Positions 248 to 29,090 of a DNA stretch of 31,137 nucleotides are shown one piece after another (the first letter of the stretch is position 1; the number at the start of each line of letters is the position of its first letter). This DNA comes from a virus. Made by a program: the position numbers and the translations under genes. The notes under the pieces were generated by a model that was given only the letters and a program-made list of their open reading frames with translations, did no database searches and was not told where the DNA came from. Where the stretch lies: positions 1 to 31,137 of the IMG/VR virus record IMGVR_UViG_3300017751_000116; one strand, given 5' to 3'.

Positions 248-518
248 CTACAACACTCCATATCATTACTCTAAACCTTTCACCAGTTCGTGTGCTTTCA
301 CCGAAGTAATCCTTCTCATCTTCCCTAGCCCTCCTACATAAGAACCTATCGTCCTTAAGTAGTGTTTGAGTGGCGGAGTTCACATTGACGGGAGCGAAGC
401 GGAAATAACCTATATTATGTAATAGGCTATCCATATCCATTTCACCCTGCTCCTTCAATACCTTATGTGCCTTTGTTCTCCATCGTGCGTAGTTCAGTTT
501 ATTGTTCATTTTTTTCAT
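237..518 (-). CDS. Small winged-helix-like protein
   Basis: A 93-residue basic protein with a good ribosome site (GGAGGTATCACA before ATG). Residues about 18-60 look like a winged-helix fold: a helix (KAHKVLKEQG), then MDMDSLLHNI and a recognition-helix-like VNSATQTLLKDDRFLCR, the pattern of short HTH domains that end in a beta-hairpin. It lies directly downstream of the MCM-like helicase, overlapping that gene's stop by 4 nt, so it belongs to the same replication operon. A nucleic-acid-binding role is inferred from fold impression only; no catalytic motif is visible. Confidence 0.6.
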   Translation of the reverse strand: MKKMNNKLNYARWRTKAHKVLKEQGEMDMDSLLHNIGYFRFAPVNVNSATQTLLKDDRFLCRRAREDEKDYFGESTRTGERFRVMIWSVVDEN

Positions 519-1834
519 TGTGATACCTCCTTTTGTTCGGCTTTTATTTTACGGGGAGAGTAGCCTATCAAGACCTGTACTCCCTTTCTACCACGCCCAC
601 CGCCGGATGAGCGTTCTTCCTTGTACCATCCTTGATGGAGTAGGTTGTCCTCTATCCACCGCTTCGATGCTTGGTAGTCACCGTTAGTAATCATACGGGC
701 TACCTCTTTGATAATGTTAGACCTACTCATTTGAGTGTTCCAAAACGCCGTCTTGATTAGTTTCAAGTCAGCATCCATGACAGTTCTTCTCATCTCCAAA
801 CATCGGTCAAGAATAGTTCTCAATTGGTCGGTCATTTCTATGTACAGTATATCGCCACCCTCATATTCGGGTGACATTATTGCATGTCCTAGAGCCAGTC
901 GGCGGAACAAGTCGGCCTCATGGCTTCTTACTTCGGGTCTAAACAACCACTCATTGAAAGCATCATCGAAGAACAATCCCTTCGGAGGGTTCATTATAAC
1001 TTCCATAGCCCTCTCAGTAAAGAACTCTCGAATCTTTAGATTCAGTTCAACCAGTGCAGCCCTCTCGGAACTCGGCATCGACGCTTGCTTTGCTTGAGCC
1101 TTCTTGAATAACATCTCCTTTTCGGGATTCATTTCAATGTCGATGATAAAGAACCTGCGGTCAAGCCCCGACTCCAATTCAAACCGAGCAGGTTGTGTTC
1201 CCGCCCATAGAGTAAACTTGGTAGTGTATTCGACCCATCCAGCCTTCATAACTTTCTTGACTCGACCATTATCAGTTGATGTGAGAAGTTGGTCTGTAAT
1301 GTCGGCGGAGTGGTCTTTTCTACCTGCATTAACCAAGGCTGAAAATTCCTCGAAGCCTAAGAATCCACCGCACATTTCCCTTGCCAGTGGACGACCCATA
1401 ACTTCGCCTTCTTCATTTACAGAACCAAACATACCTGCCTCGGTAATCGAGTTTGCTCCAATGTCAGTTCTAAAGCCCATGCCTATTTCAGCATTGGCAG
1501 GGTTGGATAGTAGCCCAGTATTGGGTGATAAGAATAGGTTGATTAGTACAGACTTACCCGAACCCTTCATACCACGCATCAAGATGTGTAGTCTTGTATC
1601 GGCTACATGGCTCATAGGAGTATAGATAGGTCGCTTGTCATGCCGTAGTATGCAAGCATCAATAGCAAATGTCTCGTTCTCGTCACCAGTAGGTATGAAA
1701 GGACAAGTACCGCACTTGTTCAATCCGTTGAATATGTGAGTGCCAATAGAGCATATGAATACCGGAACTTTATCGGCAACATCAACATAATAGTTGCGCT
1801 CTACATACTCATTTACCGTGTCAAATATATTCAT
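515..1834 (-). CDS. MCM-like AAA+ ATPase, probable replicative helicase
   Basis: About 439 residues from the ATG at 1834, which lies just after the upstream stop; an alternative ATG at 1864 would overlap that gene. Counting from 1834: Walker A GMKGSGKS near 88-95, Walker B-like FLGFEE near 158-163, then TDNGRVKKVMKAGW, a sensor-1 region LWAGTQP near 209-215 and SGLDRRF near 222-228 with a candidate arginine finger. The order Walker A, AGM/GEVM insert, Walker B, KAG strand, sensor 1, GLxxRF follows MCM-family helicases. Before it sits a KCGTCPF motif plus a later Cys, possibly a zinc site. The C-terminal 80 residues look like a winged helix, as in archaeal MCM. It is shorter than cellular MCM (about 650 aa), so it would be a minimal form. 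Another AAA+ class is possible. Confidence 0.6.
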   Translation of the reverse strand: MNIFDTVNEYVERNYYVDVADKVPVFICSIGTHIFNGLNKCGTCPFIPTGDENETFAIDACILRHDKRPIYTPMSHVADTRLHILMRGMKGSGKSVLINLFLSPNTGLLSNPANAEIGMGFRTDIGANSITEAGMFGSVNEEGEVMGRPLAREMCGGFLGFEEFSALVNAGRKDHSADITDQLLTSTDNGRVKKVMKAGWVEYTTKFTLWAGTQPARFELESGLDRRFFIIDIEMNPEKEMLFKKAQAKQASMPSSERAALVELNLKIREFFTERAMEVIMNPPKGLFFDDAFNEWLFRPEVRSHEADLFRRLALGHAIMSPEYEGGDILYIEMTDQLRTILDRCLEMRRTVMDADLKLIKTAFWNTQMSRSNIIKEVARMITNGDYQASKRWIEDNLLHQGWYKEERSSGGGRGRKGVQVLIGYSPRKIKAEQKEVSQ

Positions 1835-1838
1835 CTCT

Positions 1839-2645
1839 TCAACCCCACATATGATTCGGCACACTCGCCGGTTTATTAACTAATCCTTCAATCTCGCCCA
1901 TCAATTTATCGCTTCTATCAAATATTTCTTCGAGTTCTTGCTTGAGGTCTAATGAAGCACCTTCAATCAGTGGTAGGTCAAACATACTTAGTAATCTATT
2001 CTGTAATGTCATTCCTGCATCCCAATCCATGCGCTCATCGGGGTTATGTCCACTCACAATAGCCATGCAGGTTTCATAGCCCATCAGTTTACCCATGTGA
2101 GGGAACAACCAAGTAGGGGGGCTAAAGAAAAGTTTTACATCGTTTGGGATAGATTGATGGAAGTCGTATTCTATGATTTCCGTTGAGTCGTGAATCTTAA
2201 AGACATTGTTATCAAGAGCGTCGTGTATAGTAGTAGATGATGCGAAGTAAATATGATTATGCTCGTTTTGTTTAGCGACTTCTAATAAGTCACGAACTGG
2301 CGGGTAGGCATGAATCCATGTAGTCATAGATTGTTCCGGCGGAATCAAAGAAGTTTGAGGCCATCGAGTTACATTGAGTACAGTGTAACCCGAACTAAAG
2401 TACAAATCCCAACCAATGTCCTCATAGTCTTCTGTTTGATTGAAGACATTGTTATTGATTAAGTGGCTCAATACTTTGGCCTGTGGCTTATCCAGTTCTA
2501 CCAGCCCACTTATTGCTAGATGCGAAGCGCATCCATATTCATGTTCGGTGAATATGATTAGTCCTTTGTTATGTGTACTTAGCATGGTGTTAATATCGCT
2601 ACCATCCATTGTGTATATGTCTATGCTATCGTGTTTTGTTCTCAT
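1839..2645 (-). CDS. PAC2-like protein (proteasome-assembly-chaperone-like fold)
   Basis: About 268 residues from the ATG at 2645; a GTG at 2654 is in frame. A TATA-like TATTAAATA lies about 30 nt before the ATG, which fits a leaderless start. The pattern recalls the archaeal/eukaryotic PAC2 family: GLIIFTEHEYGCASHLAISGL near the N-terminus, a central SLIPPEQSMTTW followed by a long helix and NHIYFASS, then FSPPTWLFPHMGKLMGYE and the MAIVSGHNPDERMDWDAG stretch with LQNRLLSMFDLPL, like the 'D-x-x-A...L...L.L.id' end of PAC2 proteins. The final 35 residues form an acidic helix. The family assignment is by motif memory and needs a profile search. Known PAC2 proteins act in proteasome assembly; a viral one could alter host proteolysis, which is inference. 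Confidence 0.4.
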   Translation of the reverse strand: MRTKHDSIDIYTMDGSDINTMLSTHNKGLIIFTEHEYGCASHLAISGLVELDKPQAKVLSHLINNNVFNQTEDYEDIGWDLYFSSGYTVLNVTRWPQTSLIPPEQSMTTWIHAYPPVRDLLEVAKQNEHNHIYFASSTTIHDALDNNVFKIHDSTEIIEYDFHQSIPNDVKLFFSPPTWLFPHMGKLMGYETCMAIVSGHNPDERMDWDAGMTLQNRLLSMFDLPLIEGASLDLKQELEEIFDRSDKLMGEIEGLVNKPASVPNHMWG

Positions 2646-9800: not shown

Positions 9801-9810
9801 ATATATACTT
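9801..9810 (-). promoter_or_regulatory. TATA box for the 9760-leftward unit
   Basis: The minus strand reads AAAGTATATATGCTAG right after the stop of the 432-aa gene. The predicted start of transcription near 9780 leaves a 20-nt leader with GGAGTGA. Confidence 0.6.
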
Positions 9811-11108
9811 TACTCGATTTTACCTCTTGTTAGTACAGTTTGCTTGCGTCCATTGTAGGCATCGTGCTTCTTTACCTTGCCCGATAGTTTGATTGATTGC
9901 CCTTGTACTAGGTCGGTCTTGTTTCCACTTCTAAACCATACCAAAAGGTCGCCTTCCTGCGTCAAGAACTTGGTCAAGGTAGTAGTACCGTAGTAACCCT
10001 CAATAGTCCTCACAAAGTCCACTACAACGCTTCCAAAGTCATGCTTCTCACCAACAGTACCTAGATGCCTGTTGTTCTCAAGAGAATCAACTTTCTTAGC
10101 CTGTACTGCTTGTCTTGCTAACTTGCTACGATTCTTCAAGAATGATGCAAGAAGTCCACCTGCCATGCTTGCAGTTTTGGTTGATACAACACCGGATTTC
10201 CAGATTTGACGGCAGTTAAATTCAAAGGAATTTGACCCGCTAAGATTGTGTGCATAATCAATAATCTCATTGGCTAAATCAATGACTACATCATCTACTT
10301 CGGCACTGTTAGATGCCTCATTAGACCAATTACAATCTCCTACACCTACACCATCGAGAGGGTGTATGCATGTGTATTTTGGAGGTAGTCCTTGCATCTC
10401 ACAAAACCCAATGAATTTAGGGTCGTAACTGTCTCCTGTCTTGCTTGCCTTTCCAATGTGTCCATACTGCAATAGAGTCCTACCTAGTCCACTTCTGTAC
10501 GGCTTGTTGTTGTGTACCCATAGAGCGCACTTGATAGCGAAATCAGCGATGTTTTGGGTATAGTGACCGCCCTTTGCACCTGTGTCGTAATCGTGGGTTG
10601 TAGCCTTGCCTCTAAACGCCATGATTGATTCAACCAGTTTAGGGTCAATAGCGGTGTATTCAAACAGACATGAGTTACCTACTGTCTTGATTTCCCCGTT
10701 GTCCTTGTGGCGTACTGTGACGGTCTTCAATCGTCCTCTTTTAGAGCCTGTACAATGGTCGCAGGTGTCCAAGAAATGTACACGGTCTGTGAGGTCAAAT
10801 TCTTCTTCCAGTGCAGGATTCATCATGTGAACTCCGAGTGACATATGAGCATCATTTGGGTTAGCAGGTACAGTTGAGAATAGTACTTCCCAGTCGTCCG
10901 ATAACTCGCTCATTGTGATAGTTAAATCTTGCATTTGAACTAGAACATACTTACCACTACGGCCAATATGCTTCTTGACTGTGTACTGGTCGCCAAATGA
11001 ATGAGCAAACAGATGCCCACGACGGACAAATGCTCGCTCGATTCGCTTTAGCATTTTTTCAATTCTGGCTTGTGCTTCAATCTTCGTTTTTACTGTAAAA
11101 TTTTCCAT
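9810..11108 (-). CDS. Probable zinc-ribbon/OB-type nucleic-acid-binding phage protein
   Basis: A 432-residue protein with a CDHC pair at 116-119, a basic GSKRGRLKTVTVRH strand and VGNSC at 143-147, forming the zinc ribbon of a conserved phage family that usually reads 'CxHCxxxRxRxxTxxxxxxxxGxxxxVGxxC'. The C-terminus (GQSIKLSGKVKKHDAYNGRK followed by QTVLTR) matches the last strands of that family and resembles an OB fold, 'G.vkkH..y.G.kqT.LtR'. Single-stranded DNA or RNA binding in replication or repair is a reasonable inference but is not demonstrated. The start follows GGAGGAATAAAT; the gene is last in the unit that begins at 11967. Confidence 0.7.
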   Translation of the reverse strand: MENFTVKTKIEAQARIEKMLKRIERAFVRRGHLFAHSFGDQYTVKKHIGRSGKYVLVQMQDLTITMSELSDDWEVLFSTVPANPNDAHMSLGVHMMNPALEEEFDLTDRVHFLDTCDHCTGSKRGRLKTVTVRHKDNGEIKTVGNSCLFEYTAIDPKLVESIMAFRGKATTHDYDTGAKGGHYTQNIADFAIKCALWVHNNKPYRSGLGRTLLQYGHIGKASKTGDSYDPKFIGFCEMQGLPPKYTCIHPLDGVGVGDCNWSNEASNSAEVDDVVIDLANEIIDYAHNLSGSNSFEFNCRQIWKSGVVSTKTASMAGGLLASFLKNRSKLARQAVQAKKVDSLENNRHLGTVGEKHDFGSVVVDFVRTIEGYYGTTTLTKFLTQEGDLLVWFRSGNKTDLVQGQSIKLSGKVKKHDAYNGRKQTVLTRGKIE

Positions 11109-13289: not shown

Positions 13290-15800
13290 TTAAAACCCAG
13301 TATTCCAGTACTCATCGAAGTTAGGTTCACAAGTCATTTCAACATCTTCCGAGTAATACTCGCCAAGAAGAATCGAATCTTCATCCTCTTGGTATTGCAT
13401 TGGATTTAACCAAGTTGGCAATCTGTACCGATATTGTTTGACTGTAACGCCTTCCTGCGATAAGCCATCGAATCCATGAAACTCAATGCCATCAATGACA
13501 GTGGCTCGCCATCCACCGAAGCCGTCCATATTCCTCAAGACATATCGCCTTGCTTTTTCAAGCAGGTTCTTGTCCTGTGGAGTTGGTTGGCTAGTGGTTT
13601 TTGGAGCAGGTGTTGACCATCCACCAGTGTAGCCACTTCGCCAGTCTATGACATAGCGAGGCTCGGTGTCCTTAGTTCCCTCAATGTCACGCTTACTCAT
13701 CGTGCCATCGGGGTGAATTGTGTACTCCCTACCTACATAGGCTTGCCAGTCAGTTACTAACCTCTTACCGAATGAATCGGTCAAGTGCTTCTTAGTTGAG
13801 GCAATTACTACCGCTCCTGTCTCCTTGTTGTCAAGACGACCCATGTGTAGTGGGTTTAGTCCATTAGTCCAACACTTGAGAGTTCCAGCAGGTTCACGGT
13901 TATCACTCCAAATCAAGGACATGCTACCTTTACAGTGTTTGACCACTGTTTCGATACCTGTCGCAAGACATTGGGCTACTGCCATTGAATCTACATCACC
14001 TGTCGGCTTCATTCCAAGTTCAGTCCATACGGTATCGTGATTATTTACTACACCATTATGCACCATTGTAATTTGCCTGTCCTTGTCAAAGTGAGGATGA
14101 GCATTAGTATCGTTATTGATACCATGAGTAGCAAATCTAGTGTGGCACATTCCCCATTTGGTCTGCTTGCCGATATAGCGGTTCATATTGTGACTTAGTG
14201 CCACTGAACTATGAGGTGCTTTGACATATTTCACGCCAGTACCAGCCTCATAAGCAAAACCGGCGGCTTGGCCGCCTCTATCAGCGAGTTTTCGCCAAAG
14301 GGTCTTGAACTTGTTTTTAGCATTGAATTTTCGACCTGCACTGTGTATTGCACCAATTCCACAACCGACTATGAGTAAACTCATAGCAACTTGAGGCATG
14401 ATGACAAACAGACTCATAATCAGTCCACCAAAGAAGCCGTATTGTGGAAATTCTTCACTTCCACACTTCGGACAACATTGGCTATATTTCCATACCAAAG
14501 TATCTACTGATTCACCATTAAAATTTTGATGATTCAGTATTCGTGTGTCCTTGAACTTCAAGTCCACAACACCATCGTAACCATCATCAGCATACCATGT
14601 TTCAGTTGTGTTAGCAAATTCCTCACATTCAGTACATGTGATTTTGATTTCCTCAAACTTCTGTGCCAAGCGACTGTCAAATTCCGACCAATCAAAAGAT
14701 TGGTTTTCAGTACCTTTGTCACAGTAGTTATCATCCATACAAAAATGACTCCCACAAGTTGAACAAGCGTTAGCCAAAGCACCGCCGCTAAGCAGGGTTT
14801 GCCTTTGATTCCAATACTTGTACAATGGGTCGCTACTAGTTATTGCCATGAAATTCATCATGCCTTCAAATGACCTGTCGAACTTGCGAATTATGCTGAT
14901 ACTTGGAGCATCAGCACAACGGTTCACAAACTCATAGCACAAATCAGTCCACATTCTAGCCTTTTTGGGGTTTGATGAGATGCACTGATGTTGTCTAAAT
15001 TCAATTGTTCCATGTTTCCTAAGCGATTGAGTGTTGAGTTTTTGGTATCGTTCACAACTGCTCATATCGAAGATTTTGATAGACTCGGATTGATGGTCAT
15101 GCTTAATTGCATAATCATATTCCTGCGAATCATCATTCCAAGTGCTTTTGACTACGGGAGTATTAATCCCGTCACGCCAAGCCTCGACTAAGTAGTCTAG
15201 TGAACCCATACCTACTGACATTCCATGACCGTCACGGCGGCTAGGACTGACTAAACAATCCCAACCCGACTCAAACCATCCATAGGCAAACGCAGTTCGC
15301 CCAGTGATAGCCTTAGCCTCTCGCCATTCCATAGTGCCATCCACGCCCCACCTAGAAAGATAATGTTTCAATCCTACATGGGTGTGAAAACCTGCCGACA
15401 CACTAGAGGCCGTCATTCCTTTGATTGCCCTAAATACTTGAGTTAGCCAAGAGACATGCTCTTGACCTTCCATCGGCGGCGACACTATTTCCATTCCATA
15501 ACTGCCAATCGAGCCATCGGGCTGAATTTTAGTTTCAGCACAATTACTTGACCCATAATCAGCAGGTTTCGCTTCCATCTCCATTAACCGGAGGTAGTTA
15601 GCGATAGAATGGTGGTTTCCACTTGCCCTTCTGTCTTTCAACATCAGTTCAATTTCAACACCAGTTCGCTTTTGGGTTTTTTGTTCTATCTTCTTCCCCA
15701 CTATTGAAACAAGGACGGCTACCATGAGTCCAAAGACCCATAGCATACCGACCATCGCTTCCAAGTGGCCTATGCTTTGTGTTTCGTTTGCGTATTGCAT
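13290..15800 (-). CDS. Membrane-anchored amidoligase / class II glutamine amidotransferase fusion, 836 aa
   Basis: Residues 13-35 are a membrane segment. Residues 46-300 match the putative amidoligase (Amidoligase_2) family: TGVEIEL, PDGSIGSYGMEIVSPPM, SAGFHTHVGLKH and HGTIEFRQHQ, with the family's metal/ATP-binding Glu, Asp and His. Residues 345-450 hold three Cys clusters (CSTCGSHFC, CTEC, CCPKC). Residues 457-478 are a second membrane segment ending at Cys480-GIGAI. From there GATase-II motifs follow in order: ADRGGQAAGFA (506-516), CHTRFATHG (552-560), AHPHF (567-571), HNGVVNN (581-587), TGDVDSMA (600-607). Amidoligases join amine and carboxyl groups with ATP, and the GATase would supply ammonia from glutamine. 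Separate genes for these two activities are known in phage operons; the fusion with membrane segments is unusual. The last 90 residues are unassigned. Ribosome site GGAAGTGA. Confidence 0.75.
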   Translation of the reverse strand: MQYANETQSIGHLEAMVGMLWVFGLMVAVLVSIVGKKIEQKTQKRTGVEIELMLKDRRASGNHHSIANYLRLMEMEAKPADYGSSNCAETKIQPDGSIGSYGMEIVSPPMEGQEHVSWLTQVFRAIKGMTASSVSAGFHTHVGLKHYLSRWGVDGTMEWREAKAITGRTAFAYGWFESGWDCLVSPSRRDGHGMSVGMGSLDYLVEAWRDGINTPVVKSTWNDDSQEYDYAIKHDHQSESIKIFDMSSCERYQKLNTQSLRKHGTIEFRQHQCISSNPKKARMWTDLCYEFVNRCADAPSISIIRKFDRSFEGMMNFMAITSSDPLYKYWNQRQTLLSGGALANACSTCGSHFCMDDNYCDKGTENQSFDWSEFDSRLAQKFEEIKITCTECEEFANTTETWYADDGYDGVVDLKFKDTRILNHQNFNGESVDTLVWKYSQCCPKCGSEEFPQYGFFGGLIMSLFVIMPQVAMSLLIVGCGIGAIHSAGRKFNAKNKFKTLWRKLADRGGQAAGFAYEAGTGVKYVKAPHSSVALSHNMNRYIGKQTKWGMCHTRFATHGINNDTNAHPHFDKDRQITMVHNGVVNNHDTVWTELGMKPTGDVDSMAVAQCLATGIETVVKHCKGSMSLIWSDNREPAGTLKCWTNGLNPLHMGRLDNKETGAVVIASTKKHLTDSFGKRLVTDWQAYVGREYTIHPDGTMSKRDIEGTKDTEPRYVIDWRSGYTGGWSTPAPKTTSQPTPQDKNLLEKARRYVLRNMDGFGGWRATVIDGIEFHGFDGLSQEGVTVKQYRYRLPTWLNPMQYQEDEDSILLGEYYSEDVEMTCEPNFDEYWNTGF

Positions 15801-16144
15801 TTTTTTTCACTTCCTTTGTTTTGTGTTGGTCTATTTCCAATTGATGCTCTAATTGGCTTGTACGCTGACCTCCCTAAGCGATTTACGGTAGCCTAACGCC
15901 GACTTACTCGGCTACTACCTATGGAGTGTGAAACAGGCTCATATGAGCCTTAGAATAGGTGGAGATAGAAACACACACTAGGTCATTGACTTGAATCCTC
16001 TATTGCTATCTATTTCATCAAATCTCGCATCATTGTGTGTGCTGATTGGGTCGGGTACGAAACCGCCCAATCGGGTCACTGTTAGTGTTTGTAATGTAAG
16101 TGGTGTGACCCACCAAACGCCTCATTGGGGCGATTGGTAACGCA
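15801..16144 (-). promoter_or_regulatory. Leader/spacer between the fusion gene and a small upstream unit
   Basis: No gene is convincing here. The region holds a 16-bp perfect palindrome AGGCTCATATGAGCCT (15935-15950) and several hairpins: GATTGGG/CCCAATC (16041-16069), GGGTCAC/GTGACCC (16074-16110) and CGCC/GGCG just before the TGCG hairpin at 16137. The promoter of the 836-aa gene must lie here, but I see no clear TATA box; the palindrome centre CATATG is the best candidate regulatory site. Confidence 0.4.
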
Positions 16145-19074: not shown

Positions 19075-19198
19075 TCGTCCGTGCATCAGATTATTGACAA
19101 AATAGGCCAAAAATAGGGGCAAAATCGAGATTAATTCATATACTATGGACTCCCCCCTTCGGAATAACCGAAGTAAAAACCCGAAGGAGATTGATGAT

Positions 19199-19591
19199 AT
19201 GAATAATAATGAATTAGAATGTGAAGCATGCCGAGAGAACAAAGTTGAACAATTATTTGGTGATATGTGCGCTTATTGTAATGCACACCTATGCCAAGAA
19301 TGCAAAGAGTACCAACTGTACGAAATGCCGAATTGTATTAAGTGCGCCGATGATGACTTAGATTTAGTAGAGCCACATGAAGAAGAATACAAGCCATATC
19401 AAAACCCGACATGCACACAACCAAAGACCAAAATAATGCCGTCGGGTGCTAAAATAACATATCATACAATCAAGGACACATGTGAAGACGACTGTTGTTA
19501 TTGCCATGATTGTGAATATGATAATGATAATTATTGTGTGATATGTGGCGAGCATTATGAGTATGACCATAATGAGCCTGTAAGAGATTGA
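19199..19591 (+). CDS. Cysteine-rich multi-zinc protein, 130 aa
   Basis: The start at 19199 follows GGAGATTGATGAT; an ATG at 19145 lies next to the TATA-like box and is unlikely. Cys clusters: CEACRENK, CAYCNAHLCQEC, NCIKC, then CEDDCCYCHDC and YCVICGEHY, enough for three or four zinc ions. The first part looks like a B-box/RING-like or zinc-ribbon tandem, the second like a zinc ribbon. The chain is acidic between. A regulatory or protein-binding role is likely. It is the only unit with tandem operators upstream. Confidence 0.7.
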   Translation: MNNNELECEACRENKVEQLFGDMCAYCNAHLCQECKEYQLYEMPNCIKCADDDLDLVEPHEEEYKPYQNPTCTQPKTKIMPSGAKITYHTIKDTCEDDCCYCHDCEYDNDNYCVICGEHYEYDHNEPVRD

Positions 19592-21827: not shown

Positions 21828-23354
21828 ATGGTAATCCCCAACTTCCACCTACAAAGGTCAAAGCATGACATTAAGCATTTCTATGAATGGTTATCTCCCG
21901 AATATGAGTGGGCTGACCACATAGGAGAATGGATGGATATGTACGGTGATAGAAAAGGTGCATCAGTTCACCGTGTCTGTATTATTGCTCCCCGTTCTCA
22001 TAGTAAATCCGCTACTCTCCGAGTTAAACTACTACACATGTGTTTATTTGAGAAGCGTAATGGTAACCCTATGGAAGTATGGTTGTTCTCCGCCTCTATC
22101 CGACAGGCAACAAATCGCCTTGAGGAAATAAAGACTGATATGCGCCGCCATCCCGAATTACGAAAGTATCTCGATGAGCGCAAGTCTAACAAACAAAGAA
22201 TCTCGTTTACTAATGGTGCTTGGATTCAAGCAACTGGCGTAGGTTCAGCGATTAGAGGTGAACACCCCGCAGTAGTAGCACTTGACGATGTACTAGCCGA
22301 AATGGGGGATATGACTATGGACTCCGTTAGAGAGTGGTTCAAGAAAGTAGTTACACCAATGCTAGACCCGAACACATCATGCTATGTTGTAGGTACACCT
22401 ATGTCACATACTGACCTATACACTACCGAGATGTTATCGGAAAAAGCAAAACAAGTATGGAAATCCGGCGTTTGGTCGGCATTCCCCAATTGGGATGAAT
22501 GGCGGGCTGACCCCGATACTGTTTCACTCATACCCCTTTGGCCGGAATTTAGACCTGTCGAATTTCTCTTGGAACAAAAAATCAGCATGGACGACGACCT
22601 CGCCTTCGCCCAAGAGTATCTGTGTAAGGTCGTGGACGATGATGCCCAAGTCTTCAACAGGCATCTCATCCGAAAAAACATAGACATAGATTCCGTTGGA
22701 GGTTTTAATGTTCAACTCGATGGTAGTTCCCGATTCATAATAGGTTTCGACCCTGCTCATGGTATAGGCAAAGATTACTCCGTCTTAATATGCTTACGCC
22801 AAGATGAGCAAGGTTATATCCATTTTGTTGATATGTGGCGCAAGAATGACTTTCCGCCGGACAAGCAAGCCGATGTAATTATCGAGTGGGCTAAACACTT
22901 CAAAGCACCTGTGGCTGCGGAAGATGTAGGTTTCCAAAGATTATACGAAACTGTTATAGAGCAAAAGGGCGGCCACATAGATTATCGCCAGTCCAAAGCA
23001 TCCAACAAAGGATTGAAGCAAGGACTGATGAATCGCTTAAGAGTGTGGTTCGAGAGAGAGTTAATAGTATTCCCCTTCGGAAGTGATGACATAAGAAAGA
23101 AAGTAGGTATCATACTAGACGAATTAGAAAACCATGTATGGAAGAATGGGGATATTATTGATGTTGGCAAGCATAACGATACAGTTATGGCACTGGCTCA
23201 CGCAATAGACCAGTTCAAACCTAAGACAAATGCAGCACTACCTATGGCTACTGGTATTACTGGTGGGTGGGATAAGAGCAAAACTAATTCCAAACCAAAA
23301 GGCATTAGGCGTAATAGAAGACCTAACAATAGTAAGTATGTGGGCTTTTTGTGA
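21828..23354 (+). CDS. terL: Terminase large subunit
   Basis: A 508-residue packaging motor. ATPase part: Walker A-like APRSHSKS (54-61), an adenine/aromatic VWLFSAS strand, Walker B VVALDD (149-154) and the coupling motif VVGTP (187-191). Nuclease part: GFDPAHGIGKD (307-316) with catalytic Asp308, AAEDVG (363-368) and KHNDTVMALAHA (448-459), the three acidic clusters of the RNase H-like nuclease. Terminase cuts concatemeric DNA and pumps it through the portal. Length is normal. It has GAGAGTGATAAC before the ATG. Confidence 0.93.
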   Translation: MVIPNFHLQRSKHDIKHFYEWLSPEYEWADHIGEWMDMYGDRKGASVHRVCIIAPRSHSKSATLRVKLLHMCLFEKRNGNPMEVWLFSASIRQATNRLEEIKTDMRRHPELRKYLDERKSNKQRISFTNGAWIQATGVGSAIRGEHPAVVALDDVLAEMGDMTMDSVREWFKKVVTPMLDPNTSCYVVGTPMSHTDLYTTEMLSEKAKQVWKSGVWSAFPNWDEWRADPDTVSLIPLWPEFRPVEFLLEQKISMDDDLAFAQEYLCKVVDDDAQVFNRHLIRKNIDIDSVGGFNVQLDGSSRFIIGFDPAHGIGKDYSVLICLRQDEQGYIHFVDMWRKNDFPPDKQADVIIEWAKHFKAPVAAEDVGFQRLYETVIEQKGGHIDYRQSKASNKGLKQGLMNRLRVWFERELIVFPFGSDDIRKKVGIILDELENHVWKNGDIIDVGKHNDTVMALAHAIDQFKPKTNAALPMATGITGGWDKSKTNSKPKGIRRNRRPNNSKYVGFL

Positions 23355-28118: not shown

Positions 28119-28151
28119 GGCAATAATAAATAAAAACAGGAGATGATTAAG

Positions 28152-29090
28152 ATGGCAAACGAAACATTAGAACAAATAGTACAAGCAGACGCTCTAGTAG
28201 CACCTAAACTTAGCCCATTCGGTAAAGCGGATTCAGTGTTAGAGCAAACATTAAGAGACTTTATTCAACTACAATCAACAACTATCGCAATAGGTACACA
28301 ACTTGTTGGCGTTAGAACTGTTGGATGGTTATCATTCACATGGTACACAGGTAGTGAAGGAACTTTCAAATACCCATTGGACGACAACGCAGTAGTTGAC
28401 CCGACCATGATTGGAACTTCCAACTACTCGGTTAAACTAGAAAAGGGTCAAGGCCGATGTGTCTTCCTAGACTCCACTCTACTTAGAGGCGAAACTTGGG
28501 AAAACATGAACCGTCAACAGATGGCTATTATCCAAGCAAGAGCCGACCTAATTGACAACCACATTCTATCGAAGTTGGTTGCAGGTGCAGGTCAAGCACA
28601 AGCCGCTACTGCTCTTTGGGCAGCCGGTGGTGCAGACCCCGAAGCAGATATTCTAAACGCTATGGACTTGATTTTCAAGAACGCAAGAGTTTCCGGCAAC
28701 GAAAGACTAGCACTAGTCCTACCTGCTGAACTAAGAGCCGACATGATGAACACTCGTCTATACACCAATGTATTAATGTCTCTACAAGAGAGATTGAACT
28801 CAATGGTTAGCCTAGATGTTTACTACACTCGTGACTACGGCGCAGGTAAGGCTATTCCTACCGGCGGTGCAGGTACAGTCGGTGCAATCCTTATGATTGC
28901 CGGTTCGGAGACAGGAGAGTTCTTTACTTACAACGGTGACGGATTCCAAGAGACTGAACTAACTCGTATCGAGGGTGTCGGTTTCTCATGGCTACTTACC
29001 TCTTACATGGGAACAGTTATTCACGAATCCCAAGACGGAGCAGCAGCCGGTAAAACAAACCGTATCTGTACAATCACAGGTTGTCTGTGA
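28152..29090 (+). CDS. HK97-fold major capsid protein
   Basis: 312 residues from the ATG at 28152, ribosome site GGAGATGATTAAG. A helical N-terminal arm, then an alpha/beta core with VGVRTVGWLSFTWYTG, long spine-like helices (RQQMAIIQARADLIDNHIL) and an A-domain-like end (TLTRIEGVGFSWLL type). It follows the protease and decoration protein, the standard order of head operons. Several hundred copies form the shell. The assignment is by position and profile, with sequence similarity not directly checked. Confidence 0.8.
   Translation: MANETLEQIVQADALVAPKLSPFGKADSVLEQTLRDFIQLQSTTIAIGTQLVGVRTVGWLSFTWYTGSEGTFKYPLDDNAVVDPTMIGTSNYSVKLEKGQGRCVFLDSTLLRGETWENMNRQQMAIIQARADLIDNHILSKLVAGAGQAQAATALWAAGGADPEADILNAMDLIFKNARVSGNERLALVLPAELRADMMNTRLYTNVLMSLQERLNSMVSLDVYYTRDYGAGKAIPTGGAGTVGAILMIAGSETGEFFTYNGDGFQETELTRIEGVGFSWLLTSYMGTVIHESQDGAAAGKTNRICTITGCL

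Follow-up and report, generated by a model that had tools for sequence, protein, structure and literature searches.

A cassette of amidoligase, class II glutamine amidotransferase (GATase) and GGCT genes is widespread in bacteriophages, and the usual explanation, a putative one, is the modification of peptidoglycan or of the cell wall. In Arthrobacter phage Kovu, the GGCT, amidoligase and GATase are three successive genes (96-98), and longer versions of the cassette are carried by BroderSalsa and UFV-P2, the latter described as having a cassette of the amidoligase/GATase/GGCT type (PMC3890496). In PSA-HP1 and related podoviruses, the cassette was assigned to peptidoglycan modification and hypothesised to prevent superinfection, and the bacteriophage amidoligase beside GGCT and GATase was termed a gamma-glutamyl amidoligase (PMC5498523). 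A similar idea on superinfection and the cell wall is cited for OM43 phages (PMC10580990). Among the tailed viruses of archaea, the haloviruses phiCh1 and ChaoS9 also have a GATase-like gene (PMC8651126). However, the phiCh1 protein (ORF40) is unfused, has only 191 aa and reached 24 bits with GATase_6, just below the cut-off of 27; its neighbour (355 aa) was discarded as an amidoligase candidate, as it gave no amidoligase signal. The MurT-GatD lipid II amidotransferase is a functional analogue only: it carries out the glutamine-dependent amidation of a membrane-linked precursor, but with other folds on both sides (a Mur ligase and a class I GATase) and as two subunits.

The gene analysed here has in common with the phage cassettes (Kovu; UFV-P2/LUZ24-like; Pseudoalteromonas phage PSA-HP1; phiEco32) the same enzyme families and a GGACT/GGCT partner in one genome. 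In contrast to those cassettes, which consist of separate genes for soluble proteins with a GATase starting M-C-G, we found one chain with two membrane segments, encoded in archaeal viruses and with the GGACT gene not adjacent to the fusion. The enzyme logic is that of the phage cassette. What appears to be new is that the two enzymes are fused, that the chain has membrane segments and an internal nucleophile, and that it occurs in archaeal viruses: none of this is mentioned in the literature compared here, which does not extend to the founding study (Iyer et al. 2009) or to the principal papers on viruses of Poseidoniales. Relative to that literature, a known viral cassette has given rise to a domain architecture that is real, conserved and not listed before.

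A one-frame fusion and its relatives

The fusion gene is encoded whole inside the window, by which we mean the whole stretch of 31,137 bases from the virus record that was analysed. It is a single open frame of 836 aa running from ATG to stop on the minus strand (13290-15800). The order of domains along the chain is TM1, amidoligase, Cys clusters, TM2, class II GATase and a C-terminal extension (aa 721-836; 13293-13640, minus strand), the last being poorly conserved (25-36% identity over partial stretches, close pair excluded). A purine-rich, SD-like AAGGA stretch (15812-15816, minus strand) is located upstream of the ATG, and GGAGG, AGGAG or AAGGA stretches precede the start in 15/16 other family members, the exception being L001. 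A simple pattern search upstream of the gene revealed no canonical TATA-like box.

A search for the fusion in other viral genomes had been suggested with the original prediction, and in IMG/VR it yielded 16 further contigs that encode the same architecture in full-length proteins of 764 to about 940 aa (32-71% identity). L001 and L007 were 71% and 39% identical to the window protein, respectively, and the other 14 contigs matched over most of the chain. In the extracted frames, an N-terminal hydrophobic segment, the amidoligase, a second hydrophobic segment and the GATase follow one another with no intervening stop, and all 17 fused members matched Amidoligase_2, GATase_6 and GATase_7 in Pfam (Amidoligase_2 at E up to 0.01). 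Since the one-frame fusion recurs in 16 other contigs, a frame error or an assembly chimera is ruled out; neither of the weaknesses foreseen for the original prediction, a frame error joining two genes or the lack of a profile match, was found. A repeat scan with a profile of the 17 members disclosed no additional fused member, and in INPHARED none of the 190 matching records covered 80% of the query. In one scan of cellular genomes, only the GATase domain was matched (residues 480-654), and the match that we examined (L015) was GlmS. In a tree of GATase sequences, a branch with 97/99 support separated the fused proteins from the unfused phage proteins and the two GlmS that were included, a topology consistent with a single origin of the fusion, though several outside branches were long.

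The statement that the two activities come elsewhere as separate neighbouring genes holds for Kovu and for a separate virus group (L032, L033, L034, L035, L036 and L037), in which unfused amidoligase and GATase genes adjoin, the GATase starts MCGLIG and there are no membrane segments. The GATase gene of the unfused homologues starts M-C-G and is free of a membrane segment. Among the fused members outside the close pair, the amidoligase halves were 25-32% identical and the GATase halves 54-62%. We dropped the idea that this faster divergence of the amidoligase reflects a host conflict specific to the fusion, as the unfused pairs are equally imbalanced (39-65% for the amidoligase and 70-88% for the GATase). 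A more variable amidoligase half would be expected if the acceptor differed among hosts, but because the unfused pairs show the same pattern this is weak evidence for a host-varying acceptor.

The two enzyme domains and a likely GGACT partner

Both domains were matched by Pfam within the same 836-aa frame, as expected for one chain with amidoligase and GATase parts. The Amidoligase_2 (PF12224) match had an E value of 6.2e-11 (43.1 bits, cut-off 22) and places the domain at aa about 45-342 (14775-15668, minus strand). This domain is present in 17/17 members, and its invariant motifs are GxExE, D95/S97, E104-V106-S107, HxH (139/141), R251-Y252 and GTxExRxH (264-271), with residues including E49, E51, E104, H139, H141, E267 and R269 invariant in 17/17. 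A separate AlphaFold model of the domain had a pTM of 0.85, and its top Foldseek hits, among those listed, were glutamine synthetase, GmaS, a GS-like naphthylamine synthetase or YbdK, with a best E of 2.1e-4 and modest TM-scores of about 0.3-0.47. The amidoligase half is thus identified by a profile score above the curated cut-off and by a model that matches the glutamine synthetase/YbdK (GS/GCS-like) fold. While this predicted fold is common to glutamine synthetase, gamma-glutamylmethylamide synthetase and the YbdK carboxylate-amine ligases, the domain is unlike them in sequence: no match with PDB sequences was obtained even at E 1, and a YbdK-family match in L018 was weak (E 0.0032, below cut-off).

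The class II GATase domain (aa 480-720; 13641-14363, minus strand) matched GATase_6 with an E value of 2.3e-13 (50.7 bits, cut-off 27) and GATase_7 with 8.8e-10. Foldseek placed its model with the GFAT/GlmS and PurF glutaminases (TMt 0.73 for the GlmS glutaminase 1xff_A). The HTRFATHG motif (aa 553-560; 14121-14144, minus strand) was aligned to HTRWATHG of GlmS, and VHNG (aa 580-583; 14052-14063, minus strand), which contains the oxyanion-hole Asn-Gly, to VHNG of GlmS. The catalytic residues C480, R555, N582, G583 and D604 were invariant in 17/17 members. The profile, the catalytic set and the structural match all agree with the class II identity first proposed, and a catalytic set that is complete and invariant suggests that the domain is probably active. 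The fold and the catalytic Cys, Arg, Asn-Gly and Asp are common to this half and to the GlmS/GFAT and PurF glutaminases, but the fusion protein has no sugar isomerase or PRTase domain; a full GlmS or PurF was rejected for this reason, and because the scores fell well short of the equivalog cut-offs.

A GGACT (gamma-glutamyl cyclotransferase-like) gene was found in all six relatives of ~60 kb and in G008, and is likely to be the partner of the fusion. This GGACT/AIG2-like gene is at L056:11470-11826 and in G003-G008; it was not found in G000 and G001, both of which are partial records. The phage cassettes also include COOH-NH2 ligase and ATP-grasp genes; no counterparts of these were seen among the proteins scanned, in a scan that was not exhaustive. 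In view of the GGACT partner and of the unfused cassettes, the amine that is joined may be glutamate or another one instead of ammonia. According to this alternative, the amidoligase would ligate an amino acid such as glutamate through a gamma-glutamyl-type link, the GATase would supply glutamate or edit the product, and GGACT would remove the modification. The presence of GGACT in 6/6 of the larger relatives, the term gamma-glutamyl amidoligase applied to the phage enzyme beside GGCT and GATase (PMC5498523), and the gamma-glutamylmethylamide synthetase among the GS-fold matches are all in line with it. However, in G002 some 15 kb separate GGACT and the fusion gene. Moreover, a class II GATase beside a ligase usually serves as an ammonia supply, and we consider the ligation of an amino acid or peptide rather unlikely, and the transfer of ammonia the preferred reading.

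Cys480 and the hydrophobic segments

Class II GATases are Ntn enzymes, whose catalytic Cys is N-terminal and uses its own amino group as base. GlmS exposes this Cys by removal of Met, and the PurF of some bacteria by loss of a short propeptide. Here, in contrast, about 479 residues (the ligase domain plus two hydrophobic segments) precede the Cys, which is encoded mid-chain, directly after TM2, and is aligned with position 2 (after Met) in the glmS model, position 1 in the purF model and position 2 in the phage GATase PHROGs. This internal position behind a membrane segment was overlooked in the original prediction. Because the nucleophile of a class II GATase needs a free N-terminus and Cys480 is internal, the chain is probably cut at the Gly479/Cys480 junction (14361-14366, minus strand), and such a cleavage is likely to be needed for an active GATase. 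The VGCGIG motif at this candidate site, with Gly at -1, was invariant in 17/17 members, though TM2 as a whole was only 47% identical pairwise. In self-cleaving Ntn hydrolases, among them the proteasome beta subunits, the nucleophile is commonly preceded by a Gly, and by this analogy self-cleavage is the leading idea for the cut. If true, processing at Gly479/Cys480 would represent an unusual maturation route for a class II GATase.

The earlier suggestion that the fusion lets ammonia pass directly from one half to the other inside one chain fares poorly, as the chain is probably cut between the halves. To maintain it, the fusion would have to stay uncut, with Cys480 active despite the lack of a free amino group, and with ammonia channelled within one polypeptide. 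The fusion is kept in 17/17 members and the GATase has the complete, invariant catalytic set of a probably active domain, both of which agree with an intact enzyme. Nevertheless, the residue at which the mature GlmS/PurF glutaminase begins is the one aligned to Cys480, class II GATases employ the free N-terminal amino group of the Cys, and in an uncut chain the invariant Gly-Cys junction would lack a reason to persist, so that we judge the intact fusion improbable and favour a processed chain.

The hydrophobic segments themselves, MVGMLWVFGLMVAVLVSIV (aa 16) and LIMSLFVIMPQVAMSLLIV (aa 460), had mean KD values of 2.57 and 2.36. Both occupy equivalent positions in 17/17 members, with a mean hydropathy of 2.0-2.9 over 19 residues, whereas only 592 of 20,000 shuffles of the window protein (3%) contained any 19-mer with a mean of at least 2.0. 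This supports the two membrane segments originally noticed. TM1 (aa about 13-35; 15696-15764, minus strand) has no K/R before it and five after it in the window protein (means over the 17 members of 0 before and 4.9 in the 20 residues after), and this charge pattern is the classic one that predicts an N-out, C-in orientation. TM2 (aa about 456-479; 14364-14435, minus strand) ends right before the GATase nucleophile, and the 17-member means were 0.6 K/R before it and 7.0 in the first 30 GATase residues; the corresponding D/E means, for the same four stretches in order, were 1.6, 2.5, 3.1 and 0.4. In unfused GATases, these 30 residues contain 3-6 K/R and 0-3 D/E. The K/R-rich N-terminus of the GATase argues for the cytoplasmic side, and the flanking charges would put both enzyme domains in the cytoplasm, a location in keeping with their use of ATP and glutamine. 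By these charges, however, an N-out/C-in orientation is preferred for both segments, and this is hard to reconcile with a simple two-pass membrane protein, a conflict that the original prediction had also overlooked. The conflict would disappear with a re-entrant hairpin around the central Pro (Pro469, near the centre of TM2 in 16/17 members), or if cleavage released the GATase, and TM2 may be a hairpin or may not be membrane-embedded. In the full-chain AlphaFold model, both enzyme domains were good but the linker and TM2 were poor (aa 395-478 mostly below 50), and domain docking, topology and processing are not readable from such low-confidence parts.

The preceding linker (aa 346-446; 14463-14765, minus strand) contains CxxC pairs and is a possible zinc-binding region. 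Its three Cys clusters, at 346/349/354/360, 389/392 and 442-443/446, agree with the original description, and Cys346, 349, 354, 389, 392, 443 and 446 are at least 90% conserved in the family; the clusters are partly variable, the later pairs being absent from L031 and the first from L028.

It could also be argued that the hydrophobic segments are not anchors, and that TM2 is a hydrophobic propeptide or a linker buried between the domains. Such a role would account for flanking charges at odds with two simple spanning helices, and it is compatible with the central Pro in 16/17 members and with the low-confidence helix of the AlphaFold model. On the other hand, the hydropathy at both places in 17/17 members, rare in shuffled sequences, and the classic charges around TM1 (0 K/R before, 5 after) speak against it, and we find it as improbable as an uncut chain. 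Very improbable is the production of two proteins from this gene, with the GATase also made alone from an internal start near TM2, since, although the TM2 flanks alone resemble an N-out/C-in anchor and in several members an in-frame ATG occurs 7-27 codons ahead of Cys480, the positions of these codons are not conserved, no conserved SD-preceded start was found in the 17 members (few have an SD-like stretch), and in none is there a Met directly before the Cys, so that cleavage would be needed anyway.

Virus, host and proposed activity

The window carries TerL and portal genes, and its large terminase (21828-23354, plus strand) shared 76-92% identity with those of the contigs that bear the fusion. 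Because the window is a partial record, the archaeal-type replication genes were read from its relatives. These code for an RFC small subunit (1.5e-33 with archaeal RFCS vs 2e-11 with T4 gp44), present in 6/6 of the ~60-kb records, a family B polymerase (PolB) whose best-ranked matches were haloviruses (about 24% identity), and an ERCC4-HhH nuclease. Because of these three genes, the archaeal host of the original prediction is well supported for this tailed virus of the Caudoviricetes type, and marine Poseidoniales are a plausible guess. The portal and putative MCP of the window had no match in the phage collection.

Most archaea are devoid of peptidoglycan. In this archaeal setting, a peptidoglycan target is unlikely, and the existence of a fused, membrane-tethered form in archaeal viruses argues that the acceptor is other than peptidoglycan or varies by host; the fusion provides a single gene on which the acceptor question can be examined. 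We give about even chances to the proposal that a clade of archaeal tailed viruses makes, as a proenzyme, a membrane-anchored, glutamine-dependent, amide-forming enzyme. With ATP, the amidoligase half would activate a carboxylate of a host or viral acceptor associated with the membrane, and the ammonia would come from glutamine hydrolysed by the GATase half. The chain would be cut at Gly479/Cys480, most likely through a self-cleavage of the kind known from other Ntn hydrolases, to leave an amidoligase held in the membrane by TM1 and TM2 and, docked on it at the cytoplasmic side, the GATase. Slightly more tentative is the specific scheme in which the internal Gly-Cys cut at the end of the membrane segment generates a membrane-bound amidoligase and a matured, ammonia-supplying GATase in a fixed 1:1 ratio, acting on an acceptor at an archaeal membrane.

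As to the substrate, the amidation of a membrane-linked host acceptor is our best guess, and this acceptor might be a lipid-linked or surface glycan, or a protein carboxylate. The purpose may be a change of the host surface, perhaps for superinfection exclusion; this last suggestion of the original prediction matches the published guess for phage cassettes of separate genes (PMC5498523, PMC10580990), but for the same reason it is not a new idea. A defence system was also considered and rejected, as PADLOC gave no match. The fusion is on the strand opposite the terminase in both the window and G002, and early expression is therefore plausible.

Several other genes were observed in the window and its relatives. 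A 315-aa protein (28143-29090, plus strand), located between the 25832-27682 gene and 29100, is a putative MCP by position only; it was 75-85% identical in two relatives and had no PHROGs or INPHARED match. A 449-aa protein (515-1864, minus strand) with a Walker A-like GMKGSGKS stretch had no Pfam, PHROG or INPHARED match and was 78-79% identical in two relatives; it is possibly a conserved replication ATPase. In G002, an archaeal virus relative, there is a pyrimidine dimer DNA glycosylase-like gene (L056:3726-4298; Pyr_excise, 9.9e-9). A 432-aa protein of the window (9810-11108, minus strand) matched PHROG 2319, of unknown function, at 2.2e-43 and was 78% identical in L001, and a 148-aa protein (19145-19591, plus strand) is very rich in CxxC pairs.
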